From positions 1-38,226 of IMG/VR virus record IMGVR_UViG_3300032893_000167: a stretch of 38,226 bases of DNA; one strand, given 5' to 3'. Positions 3,097 through 22,313 of this stretch are shown piece after piece (position 1 is the stretch's first letter; the number at the start of each line of letters is the position of its first letter). The position numbers and the translations under genes are program-made. Source of the stretch: a virus. The notes under the pieces are model-generated. The model saw only the letters and a list, made by a program, of their open reading frames with translations. It was not told where the DNA came from and did not search any database.

Positions 3097-4062
3097 ATGG
3101 AGGAGCTAGTTATGGAAGGAATGCCTGTGAGCAAGCCTGGGAATAAGGTCAGTATCGCGAAGATACCGATTAAGAAAATCAGATTGAACAAAAACTCACG
3201 GCTAAACATTGACCCGGAGGAACTTGACAGACTCATGATGAGCATTAAGGAGGAAGGTCTTCTTCAGCCGATCGGTGTCGTCGAAAGTGAGAAGGGCGAC
3301 TACGAGATTTGCTACGGCAACCGCCGCTTCCTCGCGGTCAGCAAGCTGGGACTGCACACCATTCCGGCCATCGTCCATAAGAGCAACACGCAAGCCGACG
3401 TTGACATCAAAAACCTGACCGAAAATATCCAACGCCGAAACATTTCACTCCAGGAAATTGGCCGCTACGTAGGCCTCCTCGGCGAGCAAGGCATCACTCC
3501 GCGCGAAGCCGCTGTCCGCATCGGCGTCACACCTGACTACATCAACCGCTGCCTTGTCGCCTTCAATGAGATTCCTGAAGAATTCAAAAGCGACATCCAG
3601 ACACGTGTGACCGTAGGTGGCCGCCTCGGCCGACGTGGCGAACGAAACACGGACGGAAAGATTCCAGTGAGCACTGCACACGAAATTCTCATCGCCAAGA
3701 AGTCAGGCCACATCAATGCTGCGCAGGCAAAGACCCTCCTCAAGGAGGCACGTGACAACAAGAATTTCCGTACCCAGGATACGCGCCGCTACATCGCAGC
3801 CCTGAGCGCCGGCAAAAAGAATGTAGTCAATGCCATTCGCCCAATGAAGATGGTGCAACTGCACTTCCCCATGTACGTCGACGACTACGACCGCCTGCAC
3901 GATCAGGTAGTCGAAAATGGTCCGTACCGAAGCGTCGCTCAGTACATGAAAGACGTTCTCGCAGGCAGGAAATCCGGCAGCATCAAGATTGCACAGGAAA
4001 AGCTGCCAACCTACAAGCGCATGCCAAAGAAGAGGGGTAGCCGCACCCATGCCTCTGCGTAG
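3097..4062 (+). CDS. ParB/Spo0J-family protein
   Basis: The 321-aa product has a ParB N-terminal domain at about residues 20-115. It opens with I-P-I-K-K-I-R-L-N and contains a C-Y-G-N-R-R-F-L-A version of the ParB box II motif and an E-N-I-Q-R-R-N-I-S version of box III. An HTH-like segment (T-P-R-E-A-A-V-R-I-G-V-T) follows near residues 130-150. The basic C-terminus may bind DNA. ParB proteins bind centromere-like sites, use CTP, or act as regulators or nucleases. No ParA is in the window. ParB-family proteins also belong to PRTRC cassettes together with ThiF and JAB proteins, and both of those occur 4-6 kb downstream here. A second in-frame ATG at 3112 also has a ribosome site. Confidence 0.85.
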   Translation: MEELVMEGMPVSKPGNKVSIAKIPIKKIRLNKNSRLNIDPEELDRLMMSIKEEGLLQPIGVVESEKGDYEICYGNRRFLAVSKLGLHTIPAIVHKSNTQADVDIKNLTENIQRRNISLQEIGRYVGLLGEQGITPREAAVRIGVTPDYINRCLVAFNEIPEEFKSDIQTRVTVGGRLGRRGERNTDGKIPVSTAHEILIAKKSGHINAAQAKTLLKEARDNKNFRTQDTRRYIAALSAGKKNVVNAIRPMKMVQLHFPMYVDDYDRLHDQVVENGPYRSVAQYMKDVLAGRKSGSIKIAQEKLPTYKRMPKKRGSRTHASA

Positions 4063-4321
4063 CCTCGAAGAAAACCGGATCTATCAGAGGGAGTGGATAA
4101 AACGACGGCTCGCCAATGAGACTCCGGAAGAAAAGCAGGCCCGCCTCGCAAAAAGGCGGGAGTGGCGGAAGAGGACCTACGCCGCGCAGGAAAAGAAAGT
4201 GCGTGACCTCAGACACCGGGTCTTCTTGTGGTATCGGCCTGAGGACAACACACTAGAGCTAGGTCACATGGACGCGGCGTTGGTTTGGGACTGCGACTTG
4301 GTTTTGGTTGGTGAGTTATGA
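4049..4321 (+). CDS. Hypothetical highly basic helical protein, 90 aa
   Basis: The ATG at 4049 lies in the end of the ParB gene, after an AGAGGGG ribosome site at about 4031. The first two thirds are dense in Arg, Lys and Glu and should form one long charged helix; the last 25 residues are acidic and hydrophobic. I recognise no family. The overlap suggests translation coupled to the ParB-family gene, and the charge would allow nucleic-acid binding, but no motif proves it. Confidence 0.55.
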   Translation: MPLRSLEENRIYQREWIKRRLANETPEEKQARLAKRREWRKRTYAAQEKKVRDLRHRVFLWYRPEDNTLELGHMDAALVWDCDLVLVGEL

Positions 4322-4363
4322 AACGTTACCGCTGGGAAAGATGAAAACGAAGGAGAAAATGAG

Positions 4364-4744
4364 ATGAATCTATCAATGTGGCTATATCTGGTTAATGTGG
4401 TCCATAATTTGGGTTTTTATTTCACAATGATCACGGTCTTTTGTTTTGTTGGTCTGGTCATCGCGATAATTACTGCTGCCCTGATGGTCGATGCTGGTAC
4501 CAATGAAGAACAATGGAAACTTTGGAGGCAGTTTTTTGTCCCAACCATGTGTGTCTTCATTGTCTCTTCGTTTTGTTCCATCGCCACCCCGACGGAAAAG
4601 ACAATGTATCTCATGCTTGGAACCAAGGCAGCATCAGACATTGTCAATAACCCTACCGTGAAAGATGTTGGTGGCAAAGTTCTGAAGATCATCAACAAGA
4701 AACTTGACGACTTCGGGGCAGAAGATGCTCCTGAGAAAAAGTAA
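4364..4744 (+). CDS. Phage inner-membrane protein, 126 aa
   Basis: An AAGGAGA ribosome site precedes the ATG. Residues about 15-42 and 55-72 are hydrophobic enough for two membrane helices, separated by a short charged loop with two Trp. The C-terminal part (T-P-T-E-K-T-M-Y-L-M onward) is soluble and amphipathic and ends in an acidic/basic tail. I recall similar two-helix proteins with this T-P-x-E-K-x-x-Y-L signature from other phages, where they are annotated as hypothetical. It is not an evident holin. Confidence 0.65.
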   Translation: MNLSMWLYLVNVVHNLGFYFTMITVFCFVGLVIAIITAALMVDAGTNEEQWKLWRQFFVPTMCVFIVSSFCSIATPTEKTMYLMLGTKAASDIVNNPTVKDVGGKVLKIINKKLDDFGAEDAPEKK

Positions 4745-4771
4745 CGACCCGCTCGGGGAAGTGACGGAGGA

Positions 4772-5077
4772 ATGATGAGAAAATTCAGGACAAAGCCGGT
4801 GATTAAAGAGGCCTATCAATTTTTTCCCCCAGAAAACAAAATGCCTGGAAGCTGGCCTCCACTGCCTCCGGGCCTATGCGATGGGGCATGCGGCAGTTGG
4901 AGTTGTAACCGATCGCGTCCCGGAATTCACACGCTCGAAGGCACTATGTACGTTTCGCCTGGAGACTGGGTGATCAAGGGCCTTCGAGGAGAATTCTATC
5001 CTTGCAAGCCAGACATCTTTAAGGAGACCTACGAACCAGTAGAAGAAACGACCCTGCAAGGGACGTTGCCGAAATGA
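4772..5077 (+). CDS. Conserved phage protein, 101 aa
   Basis: Two consecutive ATG codons (4772 and 4775) follow a GGAGG site. The C-terminal half carries H-T-L-E-G-T-M, P-G-D-W-V-I-K-G and G-E-F-Y-P-C-K-P-D-I-F. These form the hallmark of a small protein that is widespread in phages and prophages and has no assigned function. The middle has a Cys/Trp-rich stretch (C-D-G-A-C-G-S-W-S-C) that could bind metal. The stop overlaps the next ATG (ATGA). Confidence 0.7.
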   Translation: MMRKFRTKPVIKEAYQFFPPENKMPGSWPPLPPGLCDGACGSWSCNRSRPGIHTLEGTMYVSPGDWVIKGLRGEFYPCKPDIFKETYEPVEETTLQGTLPK

Positions 5078-5430
5078 ACTGTTCTAAACACGCATGGAGG
5101 GATCACTGGACCCAATGCGAGGATTGCGTTTTTGAGGCAAGTTTAAAATTGAGAGACGAAATTTTCCCAAAGGAGGGACAAATGCATTACAGAAACGGAC
5201 GCGAAGTAAAGAATGGCGACAAATTGGTTCAACTCAGTATGGACGACAAAGGCGAAATCAAAGGCGCAGGAATTCTGTATGATGCCGTTCCGGGCAATGA
5301 CTATTGCAACGGAATGATTGCGCCCACAGCGTTCGGCCCCGGCGCGTGTTTGGTTGATTGCCTACACGTCGATGACCTGGCCGCAATTCTGAAAGAAAAA
5401 GGGTTGCACAAACGACCGGACGGGAAATGA
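5074..5430 (+). CDS. Conserved phage protein with a possible zinc-binding N-terminal extension; two candidate starts
   Basis: From the ATG overlapping the previous stop, the product is 118 aa. Its first 36 residues hold C3, H6, C15 and C18 in a CxxH...CxxC arrangement like a small zinc finger. A second in-frame ATG at 5182 follows a much stronger AAGGAGGG site (5170-5177). It would give an 82-aa protein starting M-H-Y-R-N-G-R-E, the usual beginning of a conserved phage family (with N-G-D-K and D-C-L-H-V-D-D motifs). Both forms may be made from one gene. Confidence 0.65.
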   Translation: MNCSKHAWRDHWTQCEDCVFEASLKLRDEIFPKEGQMHYRNGREVKNGDKLVQLSMDDKGEIKGAGILYDAVPGNDYCNGMIAPTAFGPGACLVDCLHVDDLAAILKEKGLHKRPDGK

Positions 5431-5445
5431 TTCCTGTTCTAATTC

Positions 5446-5465
5446 GGGGGACGGCAACGTCCCTC
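5446..5465 (+). promoter_or_regulatory. GNRA-loop hairpin in a gene-poor stretch
   Basis: GGGACG at 5448-5453 and CGTCCC at 5458-5463 form a perfect stem closed by a GCAA tetraloop; two outer pairs extend it to eight. The stretch 5431-5561 around it has no convincing gene, only 18- and 20-codon frames. It lacks a T tract, so it is not a standard terminator. It may stabilise or process the transcript. Confidence 0.4.
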
Positions 5466-5561
5466 GTAGGGAAGTGTTGGTGAGCTTTTGAGACGTCTGA
5501 ACGCCGCTCGGGCTGCGAAAAAACGGCGCAATCCTAAACTGAACTTGTAGTGGCTATTCTA

Positions 5562-5735
5562 ATGAACTGGCTCAAAGTAAACTGGCACTGCCTGATTAAA
5601 CTTTGCACCGCCATTCACGACGATCACAGGCATGTGACTCATTTTTATTTATATCCAAATCGAAGAGTTGATTTCTGTACCTGCGGATATCTCAGACCAA
5701 AGGACGAAACAAATCAGGACAGGAGCATGCTATGA
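5562..5735 (+). CDS. Hypothetical protein, 57 aa
   Basis: The ATG at 5562 was chosen; a GTG at 5550 is the alternative. Neither has a good ribosome site, so the start is uncertain. The protein is rich in His, Trp and Cys, with H-D-D-H-R-H and a later F-C-T-C-G-Y that may bind metal. The stop overlaps the next start (ATGA), which supports the frame. Family unknown. Confidence 0.45.
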   Translation: MNWLKVNWHCLIKLCTAIHDDHRHVTHFYLYPNRRVDFCTCGYLRPKDETNQDRSML

Positions 5736-5947
5736 CCAAACCAACCTACGCAGAGCGGATTGCGGCTTTGGCAAAACCGAGAGCCCAACGTGAAAGCTAT
5801 AGACTTGAACCCCTCATCTCACGGCTTGCTGAGTGTGCTGCGGTTTTGAATGAAAGTACGATTCGTGACAACTCATGGGAGACTAAGAAATTTGAAGCAC
5901 TCCGCAAACTCGACGAACTTTTGAGCGAAATGGAGCAGGGGAAATGA
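5732..5947 (+). CDS. Hypothetical helical protein, 71 aa
   Basis: It starts in an ATGA overlap and ends in another. The product is hydrophilic, with two predicted amphipathic helices (about residues 20-40 and 50-68). No motif or membrane segment is visible and I do not recognise a family. The chain of overlaps from 5732 to 7131 suggests that this and the following small genes are one operon. Confidence 0.55.
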   Translation: MTKPTYAERIAALAKPRAQRESYRLEPLISRLAECAAVLNESTIRDNSWETKKFEALRKLDELLSEMEQGK

Positions 5948-6147
5948 GTAAACAAAAAGATCCCTTTGGAAATGTAGCGGCCTCCCTCGGCATTATGGGT
6001 TTCGGATTTATTTTCTTGGCAATCTGGACGCGCTTTCATATTGAATTTTTGCTTTCGTCTTTTGTGATTTTGTTTATTGCCAATGCTTCTAATGATCTGT
6101 CGAAGAAACAAAAAGAGCGAGCCGACAAACCACAGGAGATGCCGTGA
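5944..6147 (+). CDS. Small membrane protein, 67 aa
   Basis: After a short polar N-terminus, residues about 10-28 and 32-48 are strongly hydrophobic and would make two membrane helices with a tight turn; the C-terminus is charged (K-K-Q-K-E-R). The size and topology would fit a class II holin-like protein, but the endolysin is 8 kb away and a better holin candidate lies next to it. The starting ATGA and ending GTGA overlaps support the reading frame. Confidence 0.55.
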   Translation: MSKQKDPFGNVAASLGIMGFGFIFLAIWTRFHIEFLLSSFVILFIANASNDLSKKQKERADKPQEMP

Positions 6148-6311
6148 GATTCTTTTTCTGCCGATTGGGCATTCACTTCTGGACAAAGTGGGAACGCGTA
6201 CCAGATGCGCCAGCACAAAGACGGCATTGTGGCTGGTGTAATATATGCGACCTTCGCGGATGTTATTACTGGAGCAGTGATGCTGTCGCTCCAAGAGCGG
6301 ACAAACCATGA
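6144..6311 (+). CDS. Small Cys/Trp-rich protein, 55 aa, GTG start
   Basis: This gene starts at a GTG that overlaps the previous stop (GTGA), preceded by AGGAG at about 6134, and ends in an ATGA overlap with the next gene. The product contains a C-G-W-C-N-I-C stretch near residues 29-35 and another Cys at 40, which may bind zinc or iron. Without it there would be a 160-base gap in an otherwise gapless operon. Function unknown. Confidence 0.55.
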   Translation: MRFFFCRLGIHFWTKWERVPDAPAQRRHCGWCNICDLRGCYYWSSDAVAPRADKP

Positions 6312-6964
6312 GCGCAGATGAGAAGCCTCGGGAGTGGTTTGTTGAAATCAACGAGGTGTTTGACGAACGTGAGCAATGCCAAAGCGGAATGGCATACAGT
6401 CAGACATGGTTAGATGAAATGGAAATGACAGGACATGGAATGGTTCGCGTCATCGAGTATTCCGCATTCGAGAAGGCGCAGGCTGAGCTGGTAGCCCTTA
6501 AAAAGCAGATAGCCTATATTTCATCGGCGCATGATTTAGAACGAGATGATTTAATACGACAACGATTCGCCATGAACGCCTCCTACGAAAACATCAAAAA
6601 ACAGCTTGAGGCTAATAATGAGGAGTATGCACTTTTAGTAGCTGAAAACAGAGATCTTCGTAGTGCGTTGGGGCATGAGCGCGCGAGACCAAAACACGCC
6701 ACGGCTCACAAATGGAAGACAGAGCGCGACGAGGCTCGGGCTGAGGTTGAGCAGCTTCAGTGTGGCATCTCAATACTGACTGATCAAATTGAAGACCACG
6801 AACATGGGTATAAGGCAATCATCGAGCGGTTGGTTGGGGCGTTGCGGATTATCGACAAGGAAGATGATCCAAAAGACCCGCGCAGATATTTAGATGCCGG
6901 TGGCATGTTATCTATCGTTCGAGAGGCCCTCGCCGAGTATAAGAAGTGGAAGGCGGGGAAGTGA
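6308..6964 (+). CDS. Hypothetical coiled-coil protein, 218 aa
   Basis: The ATG overlaps the previous stop. Residues about 55-165 are dominated by Glu, Lys, Arg, Gln and Leu in heptad-like order and should form a long coiled coil. The N-terminal 50 residues look globular, and the C-terminus has an L-D-A-G-G-M stretch followed by a helix. Similar proteins are common in phage accessory regions and have no known role. No membrane segment or enzymatic motif is visible. Confidence 0.6.
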   Translation: MSADEKPREWFVEINEVFDEREQCQSGMAYSQTWLDEMEMTGHGMVRVIEYSAFEKAQAELVALKKQIAYISSAHDLERDDLIRQRFAMNASYENIKKQLEANNEEYALLVAENRDLRSALGHERARPKHATAHKWKTERDEARAEVEQLQCGISILTDQIEDHEHGYKAIIERLVGALRIIDKEDDPKDPRRYLDAGGMLSIVREALAEYKKWKAGK

Positions 6965-7131
6965 AACTGCTGATAATCATCATTGCCTTCTCGATCAGCG
7001 GCTGCGACGCGCCCACACCAAGCGAAGAGCAGCAACTGAAAACGCTTGCACAGGAATGCATCAACATCTGTCCTAGTGGTGTCAGTAGCTTCCGCATCAC
7101 CTACAAAGACAGCGAATGCCGTTGCAAATAA
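6961..7131 (+). CDS. Small lipoprotein, 56 aa, GTG start
   Basis: A GTG at 6961 overlaps the previous stop (GTGA) after a GGCGGGGAA ribosome-site-like stretch. The N-terminus is a typical short signal: one Lys, a run of Leu/Ile, then I-S-G-C, a clear lipobox with Cys15 as the lipidation site. The mature part has four further cysteines and could be disulphide-bonded in the periplasm. It is not proline-rich as Rz1 spanins are. It may be a superinfection-exclusion or envelope protein; function is not shown. Confidence 0.55.
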   Translation: MKLLIIIIAFSISGCDAPTPSEEQQLKTLAQECINICPSGVSSFRITYKDSECRCK

Positions 7132-7193
7132 CAATCGTCATCCTCACGACAGCCTTCATGGCATGGTCCCTCTGGACTACCCTGCGTCACTGA
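7116..7193 (+). CDS. Possible 25-aa membrane peptide
   Basis: An ATG inside the end of the lipoprotein gene, in another frame, opens a 25-codon frame ending at TGA 7191-7193. Almost the entire peptide is one hydrophobic helix with Trp residues near the end and a basic C-terminus. The ribosome site is weak, so this is only a candidate. Confidence 0.3.
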   Translation: MPLQITIVILTTAFMAWSLWTTLRH

Positions 7194-16101: not shown

Positions 16102-16172
16102 TCTGCCCTCCCTCGTAGTTGCTCATTCATCAGGCAGTCACGCAAATACCTGTCTTAAATTGTCTGAAAAAA
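16089..16172. promoter_or_regulatory. Inverted repeat across a divergent gene start
   Basis: TTTTTTCTGACA (16089-16100) and TGTCTGAAAAAA (16161-16172) are reverse complements in 11 of 12 positions and lie either side of the shared upstream region of the genes at 16101 (minus) and 16244 (plus). A smaller hairpin (AGGCG/CGCCT, 16187-16201) follows. It could be a paired operator; no promoter boxes are convincing. Confidence 0.35.
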
Positions 16173-16243
16173 ATTCTTGCAGCACAAGGCGTGTCTCGCC
16201 TACCGTTGATTTGTTACATCAGCCTCTTCGGAGTTACTTGAAA

Positions 16244-17293
16244 ATGGAAATAGCAATGCAAGCTGGTCAGGTGCCACAAGTGCCTGCGCAGCCAAAGGAA
16301 ATGCTTTCTGTCCGCCTTGATGAGTCGATAGGCACACTCAAGGTGCGCATAAACTTTTCATCACTTGCCGTTATGCAGGAGTGCTGGAGGAAGGTCGAGT
16401 ACTCGTTGCTACGCGGACTCCGCAGTCAGTTTGAGTCACCGGCAACGCTCTTCGGGACGGCCATTCACAAGGCCCTTGAGGTTTATTACTCAGCGCCACG
16501 CACAGCGCGCAATCTGCCAGAAGCCTTCGATGAGACCATGCGTGCGATTGGTGTGGGTCAATGGCAAGACTCTTGGGCAAATGAAGTTGTCTTCTTAGCT
16601 GCGCAGGCATTCGTTCTTAAAGCAGCGCCGCTGGCAGCACTGCCGGCCGAAAACAAGCACTCAGTCGTCACGGGCGTTTGGCTACTCACTCACTACTTTC
16701 AGCGTTATGTTACGGACCCCTTTGTGGTGTTGCATGACAAGGAAGGTCCCGTCGTCGAGCGGCGCTTCTCATTGCCCCTAGGGTCCTTCAAGCACAATCA
16801 CCAACACATAGACGTAGAGCTGTTTGGCCAAATCGACGCCGTTTTGATCAACGAGCAAACGGAGCAGGTACTCGTCGCTGACCACAAGACCACGGGCCAG
16901 CTCTATGGCTTCTATGACCGCGTGAAGCCGAATCATCAATACACGGCCTACTTGCTCGGAGCGCGTGACGTCCTCGGCATTGCAAGCAACGGCTTCCTCG
17001 TCAACGCCATCGAGAAGAAGGCCATTCCGAAAACTGCGCGCGGAACGCCGCCGCAGTTCGCCCGCCAAATCACCACACGCACGGAGGATGATTTCAATGA
17101 ACTTCGATCCGCTATCTTTCACGCAGTTGAAACATTTCTGCGCCTCCGTGACCAAGGCCATTGGCCACAGACTGCTCCTGGCCCTTGTGGCAATTACGGT
17201 GGCTGTCCGTACCTCGAAGTGTGCGCGGCGCCGAAGGAACTTCACGAAACGGTCATCAAGGCAAAATACCAAGAGACAGGAGCGCACACATGA
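16244..17293 (+). CDS. PD-(D/E)XK nuclease, RecB/Cas4-like
   Basis: The open frame extends to a TTG at 16160; ATG 16244 is preferred, with GGAG upstream, giving 349 aa. The nuclease core shows G-T-A-I-H75-K-A, G-Q-I-D198 and V-A-D213-H-K215-T-T, the expected His, Asp and D-x-K residues, then N-H-Q-Y-T-A-Y. Cys47 and three C-terminal cysteines (C-G-N-Y-G-G-C...C) could hold an iron-sulphur cluster as in Cas4 and AddB. It is coupled by ATGA to a Sak4-like ATPase and is probably a recombination exonuclease. No Cas genes or repeats are present. Confidence 0.85.
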   Translation: MEIAMQAGQVPQVPAQPKEMLSVRLDESIGTLKVRINFSSLAVMQECWRKVEYSLLRGLRSQFESPATLFGTAIHKALEVYYSAPRTARNLPEAFDETMRAIGVGQWQDSWANEVVFLAAQAFVLKAAPLAALPAENKHSVVTGVWLLTHYFQRYVTDPFVVLHDKEGPVVERRFSLPLGSFKHNHQHIDVELFGQIDAVLINEQTEQVLVADHKTTGQLYGFYDRVKPNHQYTAYLLGARDVLGIASNGFLVNAIEKKAIPKTARGTPPQFARQITTRTEDDFNELRSAIFHAVETFLRLRDQGHWPQTAPGPCGNYGGCPYLEVCAAPKELHETVIKAKYQETGAHT

Positions 17294-18030
17294 AGCTAAT
17301 TGATTTGCCGACGAAGGACCTCGTGAAGTTGTTGGTAGTTGGTCCGCCCGGTTCCGGGAAGACCATCCTTGCAGCTGGCTTTCCGTATCCCATTAAGTAC
17401 CTGGACTTCGATAACAAGGTGTCATCGGCGGCACGCTACTATCAGGATGACAAAGAACGACTTGCCAACATCGACGTCGTGAATCTGAGCGCGGCCCTGC
17501 AAGACAACCCGATGACGGAACTCATGAAGGTCATCAACGAGTTTGTGTCTTACCAGCGCGCATCTAAATATCCCTACAAGACTCTGGTCCTTGATAGCAT
17601 CACTACTTTTTCCTCCGTGGTCCTGCAGGGGATCATGAAATCCAATCCAGGCATCAACCGGGTAAAGACGTCACAGGGTGAGCACCCCGGCTTACAGGAC
17701 TACGGCATTCTTAAGAGGGAGTTTCAGAAGCTCATTCCTGGCCTACTCACTCTCGACATCAACGTCGTGATGACGGGCCACGTAGAAATCAGCAAGGACG
17801 ACACGACGGGTGAGCTGATTTACGGCGTGCAAATGGACGGAAGTTTTGCGCAGCAGCTGCCCATTTACTTCGAAGAAGTTTATGTGGCTCGCGTGGAAGA
17901 ACAGAAGGGTGAACGACGTTACCTACTTCAGACTCAGAGCGATGCGAAGTTCAAGTGTCGCAGCCAGATTCCGAAGCTGCCGGCAGTCATCCCCGCAAGC
18001 TACAACGAAATTATTAAACAACGCCCGTAA
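17290..18030 (+). CDS. Sak4-like RecA-fold ATPase
   Basis: ATG 17290 overlaps the nuclease stop. The 246-aa product has Walker A G18-P-P-G-S-G-K24-T25, a Y-L-D-F-D-N strand soon after, and a Walker B-like T-L-V-L-D-S near residue 97. A V-V-M-T-G-H-V motif near 160 is as in AAA_24/Sak4 proteins. Sak4 proteins promote single-strand annealing and need a partner SSB-like protein; the next gene is a suitable partner. The N-terminal 43 codons that an earlier start would add lie inside the nuclease gene and are not conserved in type. Confidence 0.85.
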   Translation: MKLIDLPTKDLVKLLVVGPPGSGKTILAAGFPYPIKYLDFDNKVSSAARYYQDDKERLANIDVVNLSAALQDNPMTELMKVINEFVSYQRASKYPYKTLVLDSITTFSSVVLQGIMKSNPGINRVKTSQGEHPGLQDYGILKREFQKLIPGLLTLDINVVMTGHVEISKDDTTGELIYGVQMDGSFAQQLPIYFEEVYVARVEEQKGERRYLLQTQSDAKFKCRSQIPKLPAVIPASYNEIIKQRP

Positions 18031-18054: not shown

Positions 18055-18432
18055 ATGCCACTAATCACACCTGACCTCAGCGAGGTCGACAGCAACGAAA
18101 TCGCGCCCGGCACTTACGCTGCGCGAATCAAGGACGGTACACTCAAGACCAGCCAGGCGGGCAAAGAGTACATCGAATGGACGCTTGAGCTGTTCGGAAA
18201 TCCGACCGTCAATAACCGTCTGGTTTGGCATCGCACCCCCTTCACAGGTAAGGGAGCGTTCCGCTTTCAGCAAATGTACAAAGCGGCAATCGGTCAGGAC
18301 ATGGACGGAAATCAAGCAGTCGACACTGACAGCATGATCGGTAAGGAAATCACTGTTGGCCTCGTGAACTCACCGGACCAAAACGGACGACTCCGCACCG
18401 AGGTCAAGACCGTTACTGCGCACAAAAATTAA
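18055..18432 (+). CDS. DUF669-like / SSB-like recombination partner, 125 aa
   Basis: An AAAGGAG site precedes the ATG. The sequence follows the DUF669 pattern: P-G-T-Y near residue 19, then L-K-T-S-Q-A-G-K-E-Y-I with alternating beta strands, a W-H-R-T-P-F-T-G segment near 60, and a final beta hairpin. DUF669-type proteins pair with Sak4 ATPases in phages and are thought to bind single-stranded DNA. No membrane segment. The pairing with the upstream gene is the best evidence for the role. Confidence 0.7.
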   Translation: MPLITPDLSEVDSNEIAPGTYAARIKDGTLKTSQAGKEYIEWTLELFGNPTVNNRLVWHRTPFTGKGAFRFQQMYKAAIGQDMDGNQAVDTDSMIGKEITVGLVNSPDQNGRLRTEVKTVTAHKN

Positions 18433-18673
18433 TTCGGGTATCTGCGGAAGTCTCCTTGGTTCGCTCACCCAATCTCATACCGAAGAGGGCAGGGTAGGGC
18501 CGAAGGACAATTGGGCCAGGGGGACTCCGCAGGTCTTTTGTGTGCTGCCTTTCACACGAGCCGGGCACCCTTTGTCCGCCCGTCCAAGGCACCCAAACGC
18601 TATGACTCCTTTATAGTCCACAGCAAGGACACGAGGGCGGCGATGACTGGGGAAGGCAGCACAGAGGAGCTTC
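18433..18673 (+). ncRNA. Structured leader of the DNA polymerase gene
   Basis: This 241-base stretch has no supported gene. Bases 18442-18459 pair with 18516-18532: 17 pairs, one bulged A and two G-U pairs, the latter pointing to function as RNA. Immediately inside, CCCAAT (18468-18473) pairs with ATTGGG (18510-18515). The loop has GGG runs at 18487, 18492 and 18497 and GG at 18505, so a G-quadruplex is possible. Further short stems follow (GTGTG/CACAC, CGGGC/GCCCG). It probably controls polymerase expression; an origin-linked role is an alternative. Confidence 0.6.
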
Positions 18674-20950
18674 ATGGAAGAGCAACTAAACAAACTTGCC
18701 GTGGTCACGGAATGGCCACTTGGTCCGGGTTGGGAATCTGACTTTCTCGCCCGCACATTGCTCCGGGAGGGCATCAGTGAAAAACAAATTACCTACTTCA
18801 GCTTACTTGAGCGGCGGCCCTCGGGGGGACACATTCACGCTGTTGGTGAAGAAGCCCTCGCAGGGTTCGAAGAAAATTTGCGTCAAACTGTGCGATTGGG
18901 ACACTGGAAAGCTGTACTCACTTTGGGAGACAGTCCTACACGAGCACTCGGAGGGACAAGTGGCATTGACAAATGGCACTGTAGTCCCCTCTGGCGAGAC
19001 GGATCATGCATTGTGCCTGCCCTCCCCATGCAAAGAGTCTTCATTGACCTGAGTCAGCAGGTTTGGCTAATCATTGCGGCCCGAAAGGTGGCGCGTGCCC
19101 TGCGGGGCGAACTAAAGGAGCAGACGCATGTTCACTATCTCAATCCCCCTCTGGAAGAGGCTTTGGGTATCCTTGAGTCTCTTCGAGACCGACAACAGGT
19201 CGCTCTGGACATCGAAACTGGTCGCGGTCAGATTAACACGGTGGGTTTTGCTTGGTCGGCAACCGAAGGGGTGGCAATTAATACTCTCCCTGATCGACTT
19301 TCAGGAGCAAATTATTCCCGATTATGGTCAGTCATCCGTGATGTTGTTGAGTCCGATCAGCCTAAGCTTCTGCAGAATTTCATCTACGAAACCCTCTACT
19401 TCAGTCGCTACGGTATTCGCCTCCGGGGAGTCACGCACGACACGATGATTTGTCAGAAGTTCTTGTGGCCGGAGTTGGAAATGGGTCTCGACGCCATTGG
19501 CCGCATGTACACTGACATGCCTTATTGGAAAGACGACAACAAGGATTGGAGCAACATCCGTGATTGGCAAAAGCACTACGAGTACAACTGCAAGGATACG
19601 ACTGGAACGTTTGCGGGATACCTCGGACAAACTGCTGACCTCGATCAACGAGGATTGCGTGACGTCTACTTTGGATATATTGCTCGACTATTTCCTGCAG
19701 TTGCAGAAATGTGCTCCCGGGGACTTCCTGTCTCCGAGCGTGCTCTTCGTAGTTTGCAAAGCAAGGTTGATGGGGAATATACAGCTGTACTTGCTGACCT
19801 CCGGAAGTTACCCGGTGCTGAGCGCCTCAATCCCAGGTCACATGCGCAAGTTAAATCCTTTCTCAGCAGCCCCCCTCGAAAATACAAACTCCCGAAGAAA
19901 CGGGACTCGGCGACAAAGACCTGGAAAGATAGCTCAGACGAAAAGTCACTGAAGAAACTTCGCGTGAAGTACCCGGAGGACCCGGCTCTTCCAGCACTCC
20001 TCCGCCTCGCAAAATTAGGCAAGATCATCAGTAGCTACCTGTCATTCGGCTATGACCCGGACGGACGGATGCGCTATCAGATTATTGCCGGCGCCACGGA
20101 AACAATGCGAATGGCCGGCTACTGCGACCCCTGGGACAGGGGCGTAAATCCGCAGACTATTCCCGGAGGCACCAAGGGCATCAACGTGAAACAGATTTTT
20201 CATGCGGAGCCGGGTCACTCCTTCCTTCAGTGTGACCTTGCGCAGGCGGAGTCACGCTTTGTCGCTTACGATGCGCCGGACCTAGGTCTGATTCGCGTCT
20301 TGGAAGATCCGACAAAGGACATCCACTCAATGGTGGCTGTTGAGATTTGTCAGCAATGGGGAAAGGACCCTGTCGCTGAGCAGGCCCTGCCTACCTGGAA
20401 GAAAACTTGGAGGCAACTCGGTAAGAAGTCCGGCCACGGTGCCAATTATGGTGAGCAGGAAAACACCCTCATCGACACCTGTCTCAGTGAGCTGGATATT
20501 GTTCTGACGAAATCCGAAGCAAATAAAGTGCTAGAAGCCTATCACACGTTGTTTCCGGGCATTCGCCGATGGCATAAGAATATTCGAGAAGAAGTTGTGC
20601 TTCGGCGGAAGCTAACCACTCCGTGGGGCTGGGAGCGTCAGTTTTTTGGTCGCATGAATGACGACACATTTCGCGAGGCTTACGCATTCCGTCCTCAGGC
20701 TACCATACCTTATTTGATCAACCAGCTCATGCTGCACCTTCTGGCACAGAGGGGGCGGGGACTCCTCGACTTCCGTCTGCTTCTGCAGGGACATGACTCG
20801 CTGCTCCTGGAAGTGCCAGACAGAGCCCTTGCCGAGGTGACGGCAACTTGTAACGATTTATCTTCGTGGCAGCCCGGCTTCGACCTTGCCGGCGGCCACC
20901 TCGTCATTCCCGTGGAAGTAGCAACTGGAAAAATTTGGGGGGACCTATGA
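18674..20950 (+). CDS. Family A DNA polymerase with degenerate UDG-like N-terminal domain
   Basis: The 758-aa product has three parts. Residues about 1-145 resemble a family 4/5 uracil-DNA glycosylase fold (L-T-L-G-D-S, later I-V-P-A-L-P) but lack the Fe-S cysteines and the HPS active-site motif. A 3'-5' exonuclease follows: D179-I-E181-T, N-F-I-Y-E (Asp replaced by Glu) and Y-N-C-K-D. The polymerase core has motif A with D521, motif B R580-x3-K584-x3-H588-G-x2-Y592-G and motif C H707-D708-S709. Position 588, usually Phe or Tyr, is His, and the usual motif C Glu is Ser. It is the phage replicase, likely active. The ribosome site is a GAGGAG stretch. Confidence 0.95.
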   Translation: MEEQLNKLAVVTEWPLGPGWESDFLARTLLREGISEKQITYFSLLERRPSGGHIHAVGEEALAGFEENLRQTVRLGHWKAVLTLGDSPTRALGGTSGIDKWHCSPLWRDGSCIVPALPMQRVFIDLSQQVWLIIAARKVARALRGELKEQTHVHYLNPPLEEALGILESLRDRQQVALDIETGRGQINTVGFAWSATEGVAINTLPDRLSGANYSRLWSVIRDVVESDQPKLLQNFIYETLYFSRYGIRLRGVTHDTMICQKFLWPELEMGLDAIGRMYTDMPYWKDDNKDWSNIRDWQKHYEYNCKDTTGTFAGYLGQTADLDQRGLRDVYFGYIARLFPAVAEMCSRGLPVSERALRSLQSKVDGEYTAVLADLRKLPGAERLNPRSHAQVKSFLSSPPRKYKLPKKRDSATKTWKDSSDEKSLKKLRVKYPEDPALPALLRLAKLGKIISSYLSFGYDPDGRMRYQIIAGATETMRMAGYCDPWDRGVNPQTIPGGTKGINVKQIFHAEPGHSFLQCDLAQAESRFVAYDAPDLGLIRVLEDPTKDIHSMVAVEICQQWGKDPVAEQALPTWKKTWRQLGKKSGHGANYGEQENTLIDTCLSELDIVLTKSEANKVLEAYHTLFPGIRRWHKNIREEVVLRRKLTTPWGWERQFFGRMNDDTFREAYAFRPQATIPYLINQLMLHLLAQRGRGLLDFRLLLQGHDSLLLEVPDRALAEVTATCNDLSSWQPGFDLAGGHLVIPVEVATGKIWGDL

Positions 20951-21120
20951 AAGACGACAAGAAGATGGTTTTTGATTTGCAGCAAGTCGGTGCCGGAAGT
21001 CCTGGCGATGTTCCGCCAAAGGCCCGCGTAGCCCTGCTTCGTGCTATTCAGCAAGTGCTGCTCGAGCGGAAGGAAGAGATTTTTGCGCGTGCGCGAAAGA
21101 TTGCCAAGGACTTGCCTTAA
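20947..21120 (+). CDS. Hypothetical helical protein, 57 aa
   Basis: ATG 20947 overlaps the polymerase stop (ATGA) and the TAA stop overlaps the next ATG (TAATG). The product is mostly one amphipathic helix in its second half, with many Arg, Lys and Glu. No family is clear. Its placement between polymerase and ATPase suggests a small replication accessory protein. Confidence 0.55.
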   Translation: MKDDKKMVFDLQQVGAGSPGDVPPKARVALLRAIQQVLLERKEEIFARARKIAKDLP

Positions 21121-22313
21121 TGGCGCGGCATTTTTCGGACTGGCTCACCGACTACGCGGAATATGCGAAGGACGACTTTTGTCCTGACAAGTTTCACTTC
21201 TGGACCGGCATCAGTGTGATTGCAACGGCCCTTGAGCGGAAGGTCTGGTCAGTGATCGACAACGTGACCTTTTATCCTAACCTTTATGTGTTGCTGATTG
21301 GCCGGCCCGGCGTCGGGAAGTCGAAGGCGACGAGCCTCGGTGTGGGTCTCCTCCGGAAGCTCGACGACATTAACTTCGTAGCTGCACACAACTCCGAGGC
21401 ATCGCTTGTGAAGCAGGCAGCCCGTTGGAAGAAGTTTTACGTTGGTACTCGTGAGTACACGCAGGCAGCAGCCTTCCTCTATGCGAGTGAGGCCAGCAAC
21501 ACCATTAAAGAGCTTGCGGGAGGCGGCGAGATTAAAGCCTGCCTTACGGACTTCTATGACTGCCATGATATCTGGAAGAAGGAGCTGGTAAAAGAGGCCA
21601 TCGTCATCAACAACGGCTGCTTCAATGTGCTGGCCTGCTCGACCTTCGCCTTCCTCAAGCAACTCGTACCTAAGAAGGAAGCCGATGGCGGTTTTGCGTC
21701 TCGGTTCATCTATGTAGCACAGCGGGAGTATTTCGCGAGGAAGCCTAAATGGCATCGCGTGGAAAAGTCTTATGACTTCCTGGGAAAGCTACTTGATGAC
21801 CTGCGCGACATTCATGCGATGAGCGGTCAGTTTTCGCCGACCGATGACCTCATCAGTGCATTTGAAAATTGGTTTCCGCAGCAGGACCTGGAAAGGCAGC
21901 TCATGCCGTCCGAGCGGCTGCAGGGCTTTCTGACTAGGAGGCACACCAATATCGTGAAGCTTGCGATGATTGTGTCGGCAAGTGAGTCGTCGTCGGGGAA
22001 GCTGACCCTGGCCCATTGGCAAAGGGCTACGCAGCTTTTCAATGAGCTTGAGCTAGACATACCATTCATCGTCGACCAAAGCGTGGATAAGGACAGCGAG
22101 CAGAGTATCAGCTACCACATCATGAAAACCATCGAGGACTTGGGCGGTGAATGTGGGAAGTCGGAGCTGCTTGCGACATTGCTCCGGAAAGGCGTACCTA
22201 CAAGCAAGATAGAAATACAACTAAATGGTCTTCAGAGAGCGAAGCTAATCGAAGTCAACGTCGCGGACGGCGGACGGTGTAAACTGCTTGCGAACCCGAA
22301 GGACTATCTCTGA
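21120..22313 (+). CDS. P-loop ATPase, DUF3987-like, probable replication helicase or loader
   Basis: The 397-aa product starts with a short helical region (F-S-D-W-L-x-D-Y-A). It has a Walker A loop G61-R-P-G-V-G-K67-S68 and a later D-C-H-D-I-W / acidic region that may be Walker B. A block with L-A-C-S-T-F and G-F-A-S-R-F near 170-195 could hold sensor and arginine-finger residues. The C-terminus (about 320-397) looks like a winged helix. This layout resembles DUF3987 phage proteins found with family A polymerases. No separate DnaB-like helicase or primase is visible, so it may fill the helicase role. Confidence 0.7.
   Translation: MARHFSDWLTDYAEYAKDDFCPDKFHFWTGISVIATALERKVWSVIDNVTFYPNLYVLLIGRPGVGKSKATSLGVGLLRKLDDINFVAAHNSEASLVKQAARWKKFYVGTREYTQAAAFLYASEASNTIKELAGGGEIKACLTDFYDCHDIWKKELVKEAIVINNGCFNVLACSTFAFLKQLVPKKEADGGFASRFIYVAQREYFARKPKWHRVEKSYDFLGKLLDDLRDIHAMSGQFSPTDDLISAFENWFPQQDLERQLMPSERLQGFLTRRHTNIVKLAMIVSASESSSGKLTLAHWQRATQLFNELELDIPFIVDQSVDKDSEQSISYHIMKTIEDLGGECGKSELLATLLRKGVPTSKIEIQLNGLQRAKLIEVNVADGGRCKLLANPKDYL

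Follow-up and report, generated by a model that had tools for sequence, protein, structure and literature searches.

A Hairpin Behind the ssb Gene, Probably a Terminator-Like Brake Ahead of polA, in Phage Replication Modules

Introduction

A long hairpin in the gap between two phage genes raises the question of which gene it serves. We studied such a case in a window of 38,226 nt, the whole of a virus record (IMGVR_UViG_3300032893_000167), in which an initial annotation had placed a wobble-containing stem at positions 18442–18532, ahead of a DNA polymerase gene, and had suggested an autoregulatory leader for that polymerase. Does the structure go with the polymerase or with the gene that ends before it, is it selected as RNA, and what may it do to the transcript?

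Results

The Gap Between ssb and polA

The window contains a rightward replication-type module around the gap in question, with the following features:

16160–17293, rightward (+): PDDEXK nuclease gene
17290–18030, + strand: Sak4-like ATPase gene (PHROG 124, E 6e-33)
18055–18432, + strand: SSB-like gene, ssb (Pfam DUF669; PHROG single strand DNA binding protein)
18440–18534, + strand: H1, a 22-pair stem with one bulge and arms 18440–18462 / 18513–18534, holding the hairpin described earlier (from folding; position after ssb conserved in relatives)
18534–18542, + strand: U-rich tail of H1, UCUUUUGUG (from sequence; U-rich tails enriched across relatives)
18535–18669, + strand: H2, a second long hairpin with its foot at 18535–18539 x 18665–18669 (prediction, z -2.5)
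18665–18669, + strand: polA Shine–Dalgarno (SD) sequence AGGAG, predicted to pair with the H1 tail (pairing probability 0.5–0.85)
18674–20950, + strand: family-A DNA polymerase gene, polA (Pfam DNA_pol_A, E 6e-28)
21120–22313, rightward (+): DUF3987 gene

The downstream gene is thus a DNA polymerase, as the initial annotation had it. DUF669 has been demonstrated to be an SSB in phage HK620, whose SSB and annealase pair represents the families DUF669 and Sak4 (PMC5928155). The ssb–polA gap is 241 nt long and contains two consecutive long hairpins, H1 and then H2. No Rfam family reached its gathering threshold in the window (best sub-threshold match E 5), no tRNA gene was found there, and a scan for promoter-like sites between H1 and polA found none. 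Searches of GenBank phages returned no nucleotide relatives of the window and none for the SSB protein, and relatives of the polymerase or Sak4 were not found in prokaryote genomes.

The stem described earlier was recovered exactly, with 17 pairs (18442–18459 x 18516–18532), a bulge at A18449 and two G–U pairs, as the lower part of a longer outer helix that is mostly G–C and counts five G–U among its 22 pairs. The main stem encloses 50 nt (18463–18512) that are partly folded themselves. An inner stem of CCCAAT (18468–18473) and ATTGGG (18510–18515) had also been proposed; these bases do match, but some of the G's are also claimed by the outer stem, and the pairing lies outside the minimum free energy (MFE) structure. 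The MFE of 18430–18545 was -51.1 kcal/mol, where shuffles averaged -37.6 (z -3.7), and none of 200 shuffles was as stable, while the reverse strand of the H1 region folded far worse (-33.8, z -1.6). A strand-symmetric stem finder placed H1 among the strongest stems of the window (p about 0.01).

H2, absent from the initial annotation, fills the interval of ~140 nt between H1 and the polA start and is weaker than H1 by shuffling (z -2.5; 3/200 shuffles). In its predicted foot, CUUUU of the H1 tail pairs with AGGAG, the polA SD. With the whole gap folded, opening the polA start region in the window costs 12–16 kcal/mol. Over 17 close loci (described below), the polA start was the least accessible of five genes, with a median opening energy of 11.2 kcal/mol in comparison with 4.5 for ssb (MWU p 1e-4). 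An overlapping ORF at 18642–18740, with its ATG at 18642 inside H2 and GAGGG before it, enters polA in another frame and may be due to chance.

A Hairpin at the Same Place in Relatives

From polymerase and Sak4 searches of IMG/VR, we assembled 16 distinct loci with ssb adjoining polA, their polymerases 37–58% identical to that of the window; with the window included, this close set has 17 loci. A long hairpin follows soon after the ssb stop in nearly all 16, conserved by position, although the junction sequences are mostly unalignable. The stem begins a median of ~12 nt past the ssb stop in the close relatives, regardless of the distance to the polymerase, and in many loci the hairpin lies 3–17 nt from the stop.

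We ranked structure with a local folding scan, corrected for composition by regression rather than by shuffles and expressed as a percentile within each locus. In the 17 loci, no other gene end was as structured as the 150 nt past the ssb stop (median percentile 0.036), the other ends having medians of 0.60 (nuclease), 0.66 (sak4), 0.52 (polA) and 0.38 (DUF3987). Without the window, the combined Fisher value for structure after ssb was 7e-9; such p-values take the loci as independent, which by descent they are not, although few of their stems can be aligned. L034, L041 and L043 were weak in the folding scan, yet their hairpins are visible; L026, with a short and A/T-rich gap, has none.

The loops have little in common. 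The GGG runs noted earlier are indeed in the H1 loop, but they occur in only some relatives and are no shared feature. We found no conserved loop motif across the relatives, the longest word common to two loops being 10 nt (shuffle p 0.08). This word, TAGGGCCGAA, is common to the loops of the window (about 18495–18504) and L035 (about 3871), and shuffles gave a shared 10-mer in 8% of trials. The L002 loop (about 3910) has GGGCACGAAGGA, similar to GGGCCGAAGGA of the window, and the pattern GGGCA?CGAA occurs once on the + strand in each of the window, L035 and L002. We also considered a conserved pseudoknot between the loop and downstream bases and rejected it: among 15 loci, only L002 (p 0.05), L038 (p 0.02) and L040 (p 0.05) stood out, and the feature is not shared. 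The possible pseudoknot of L002 (3869–3960) joins the loop bases UCCCCGGG with UCCGGGGA just downstream (shuffle p 0.05).

Several loci had features of their own. In L039, an AUG within the hairpin (3865–3940) opens a 24-codon leader ORF (MNQLKLSS...) that resembles the N-terminus of the L030 polymerase and whose stop overlaps the presumed polymerase start; the polymerase ORF of the same locus (3914–7183) has ~1,090 codons against ~750 in relatives, probably owing to an intein or other insertion. The polymerase match is split over two ORFs in L015/L040 (L015 5257–6726 and 6905–7669) and in L003 (428–1723 and 2339–2929), as by an insertion, intron or frameshift. In L067, a sequence judged tRNA-like by eye (about 3445–3540) lies beside the hairpin, between the SSB-like gene and polA.

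The Hairpin Stays with ssb

Loci in which ssb and polA are separated provide a natural experiment telling which gene owns the hairpin. In more distant loci, we located the SSB-like gene with a profile HMM; the distant family matched DUF669 with an hhalign probability of 83.5 (E 8e-6), with the assignment weak in some loci (L088, E 0.09; L089, E 0.9). Structure was present in the nine distant loci with ssb adjoining polA (Fisher 2e-6). In the 15 with ssb apart from polA, the sequence after ssb was structured (median 0.038, Fisher 7e-7), and the polA start of the same 15 was not (median 0.466, Fisher 0.35). A third set of 48 further independent loci, found via Sak4 alone, gave the same picture, with a Fisher value of 5e-17 after ssb and no structure after sak4 (0.53) or at polA starts lying apart (0.69).

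The hairpin stays behind ssb and is missing before a separated polA, and a polymerase leader is therefore refuted as the general explanation. Its anchoring to the ssb stop, seen in about 90 loci overall, indicates that H1 is a part of the end of the ssb gene, not of the start of polA. In phage N4, ssb overlaps the next gene, and in HK620 the gap after ssb is just 24 nt; the trailer is therefore not universal among DUF669-type phages.

Two GenBank phages left unranked by the automated scan have stems after a putative SSB gene. That of L088 (MW202489, about 1088–1206) is long and encloses a very long loop, and that of L089 (Microcystis phage Mel-JY34, about 795–825) is capped by UUCG and followed by a U-rich tail.

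Selection Acts on the Coding-Strand RNA

We counted G–U pairs and A–C mismatches with a strict stem finder that scores the two equally and favors neither strand; a more lenient finder gave no excess over background, and the strict finder was used for the results. In the junction stems of the close relatives, the G–U:A–C ratio was 27:6 against a background of 1390:1444 (p 1e-4), and it was 61:11 in the distant set (p 2e-11) and 80:22 in the third, independent set (p 8e-12). Stems after sak4 showed no G–U excess (43:59). As G–U stands far above A–C in three sets, selection acts on the coding-strand RNA, and by this measure the selected structure is that of the sense strand; the RNA role that the initial annotation had read from the wobble pairs of a single stem is borne out against a background of about 1:1.

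The covariation in relatives that had been proposed as a check was found in one clade (L028, L030, L083 and L039). There, a stem of 14 bp is intact in all four sequences (56/56 pairs), and at eight of its positions both partners have changed. The alignment has hand-placed bulges, and every arm was verified to be present in its locus; none of 500 shuffles and no slid register came near this result. In the covarying stem, the partner of the polA start region is a run of codons just within the gene or, in L039, the short leader ORF.

Terminator-Like Tails and Masked Starts

U made up 50% of the 8 nt after strong stems in the close relatives, against an expected 23% (p 7e-10). The figure was 40% both in the distant set (against 25.5%, p 1e-4) and in the third set (against 27%, p 7e-6), and about half of the tails had at least four U's where roughly 1/10 would be expected. 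By sequence, the third set includes many textbook intrinsic terminators, for example L098, L106 and L110; that of L098 reads AAGCCTACTATC..GATAGTAGGCTT-TTTAGG. H1 itself has the GC-rich stem and, directly after it, the U-rich tract of an intrinsic terminator, but not the short loop of 3–8 nt closing the main stem, and a terminator consensus scan with that loop rule reports no site at H1. Because its main stem encloses ~50 nt, we call H1 terminator-like and not a canonical terminator.

In six close relatives (L028, L030, L083, L032, L034 and L036), there is no U tail, and the polA SD, the start codon or both lie buried in the stem. Since the stem lacks such a tail and runs into polA, these six cannot act as terminators. 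In many loci, on the other hand, the SD of the next gene lies outside the hairpin. Given that no promoter-like site was found between H1 and polA in the window, termination at H1 cannot be complete, barring other promoter types or antitermination.

Discussion

We think it probable that H1 is a 3'-trailing hairpin of ssb in the sense transcript of a sak4–ssb–polA operon, acting as a terminator-like intra-operon attenuator whose tail also masks the polA SD via H2, with SSB abundant and polymerase scarce as the net effect. RNA polymerase moving past ssb would meet the GC-rich stem and U-rich tail of H1, and some transcripts would stop at H1 or be trimmed back to it. The ssb mRNA left behind would be protected at its 3' end, and there would be less polA mRNA. 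On readthrough transcripts, the CUUUU tail would pair with the polA SD at the foot of H2 and slow polA initiation, so that SSB would be made in plenty and the polymerase sparingly. An intra-operon attenuator or 3' protector is the most likely role of H1, and we infer from it that termination is partial or the 3' end protected, and that the SSB:polymerase stoichiometry follows. As the H1 tail is the very strand predicted to mask the polA SD in H2, the window hairpins probably act in both ways, as terminator or 3' protector and as a mask on the polA start. Across the loci, the common denominator would be a brake that comes directly behind ssb while the transcript runs on into other genes, serving as a terminator or 3'-end protector in the majority and as a polA start mask in some close relatives.

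Purely translational control, in which the hairpins bury the polA start (H2 in the window), polA is translated slowly or by coupling to ribosomes that complete ssb, and H1 has no role in termination, is the strongest competitor, although we hold it to be unlikely. It would account for the poor accessibility of the polA start, for the covarying start-burying stem in L028, L030, L083 and L039, for the closeness of the hairpin to the ssb stop and for the several stems that extend into the polA coding region. It would not account for the hairpin remaining after ssb where polA is elsewhere, the enriched U tails or the many loci whose next SD lies outside the hairpin.

Less likely again is a site for RNase III or another endonuclease that cuts the ssb message apart from that of polA, so that a stable ssb mRNA remains. 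Long duplexes such as the singly bulged 22-pair stem of the window would suit it, as would an intergenic position, an origin in sense-strand RNA and the absence of sequence conservation. RNase III prefers about two helical turns, however, and many of the stems have just 10–13 pairs, which is short for the enzyme; nor would it need the U-rich tails and the canonical short terminator stems found in many relatives.

An autoregulatory operator bound by the DNA polymerase, of the T4 gp43 type and as originally suggested, now appears very improbable. Like the T4 gene 43 translational operator, H1 is a hairpin in RNA that precedes the gene of a phage DNA polymerase, and selection at the RNA level would agree with such a function. 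The gp43 operators of T4 and RB69, however, have loop bases in common and accompany the polymerase gene (PMC3014915), whereas H1-type hairpins share no loop and go with ssb. An element acting in the DNA, for instance an origin of replication or a cruciform, could explain an inverted repeat near replication genes, but the G–U:A–C asymmetry in three sets and the far worse folding of the reverse strand of the window leave it hardly credible.

A further reading, which we regard as speculative and improbable, is a dedicated stoichiometry device of two layers that senses SSB: free SSB, once the DNA is covered, would bind the U-rich tail or loop and shift termination, mRNA decay or polA masking, tying polymerase synthesis to SSB supply, with the stem evolving between a terminator and a start-codon mask in different phages.

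Partial terminators inside phage operons have a precedent in T-phi of T7, an intrinsic (Rho-independent) terminator after gene 10. The ssb trailer resembles intra-operon phage terminators in following shortly after the gene of a bulk product, in its U-rich tail and in having the next gene on the same strand with no promoter-like site between, and several distant relatives show the canonical form. It differs, in the window and most near relatives, by stems that enclose 20–60 nt and by a U tail that is imperfect or absent, and some stems reach the start of the next gene. The mRNA of T4 gene 32, which encodes the SSB, is the most stable T4 mRNA, and its control is through a pseudoknot operator in the 5' leader (PMC3014915, PMC535899). 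Both cases have a structured RNA adjoining a phage SSB gene, but the likeness is one of analogy only, the structure here being 3' of ssb and that of T4 lying in the 5' leader. Hairpins that sequester the SD are known from T4 genes e, soc, 49 and I-TevI and from mobE of phage Aeh1 (PMC3014915). As in these, a start region is buried in a helix in H2 and in the stems of L028, L030 and L083; theirs, however, time other genes or homing endonucleases, while here polA is masked and the stem stands at the end of ssb. A literature search, incomplete in its coverage, found no paper describing such an ssb trailer.

The recurrence of a hairpin at the same place after ssb in ~90 uncultivated phage loci, with stems that are mostly unalignable, shows strong selection for the hairpin as such. 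Among close relatives, some have a terminator-like hairpin in this slot and others a stem burying the polymerase start. The findings suggest a general way for sak4–ssb–polA phages to set a high SSB:polymerase ratio from one transcript.
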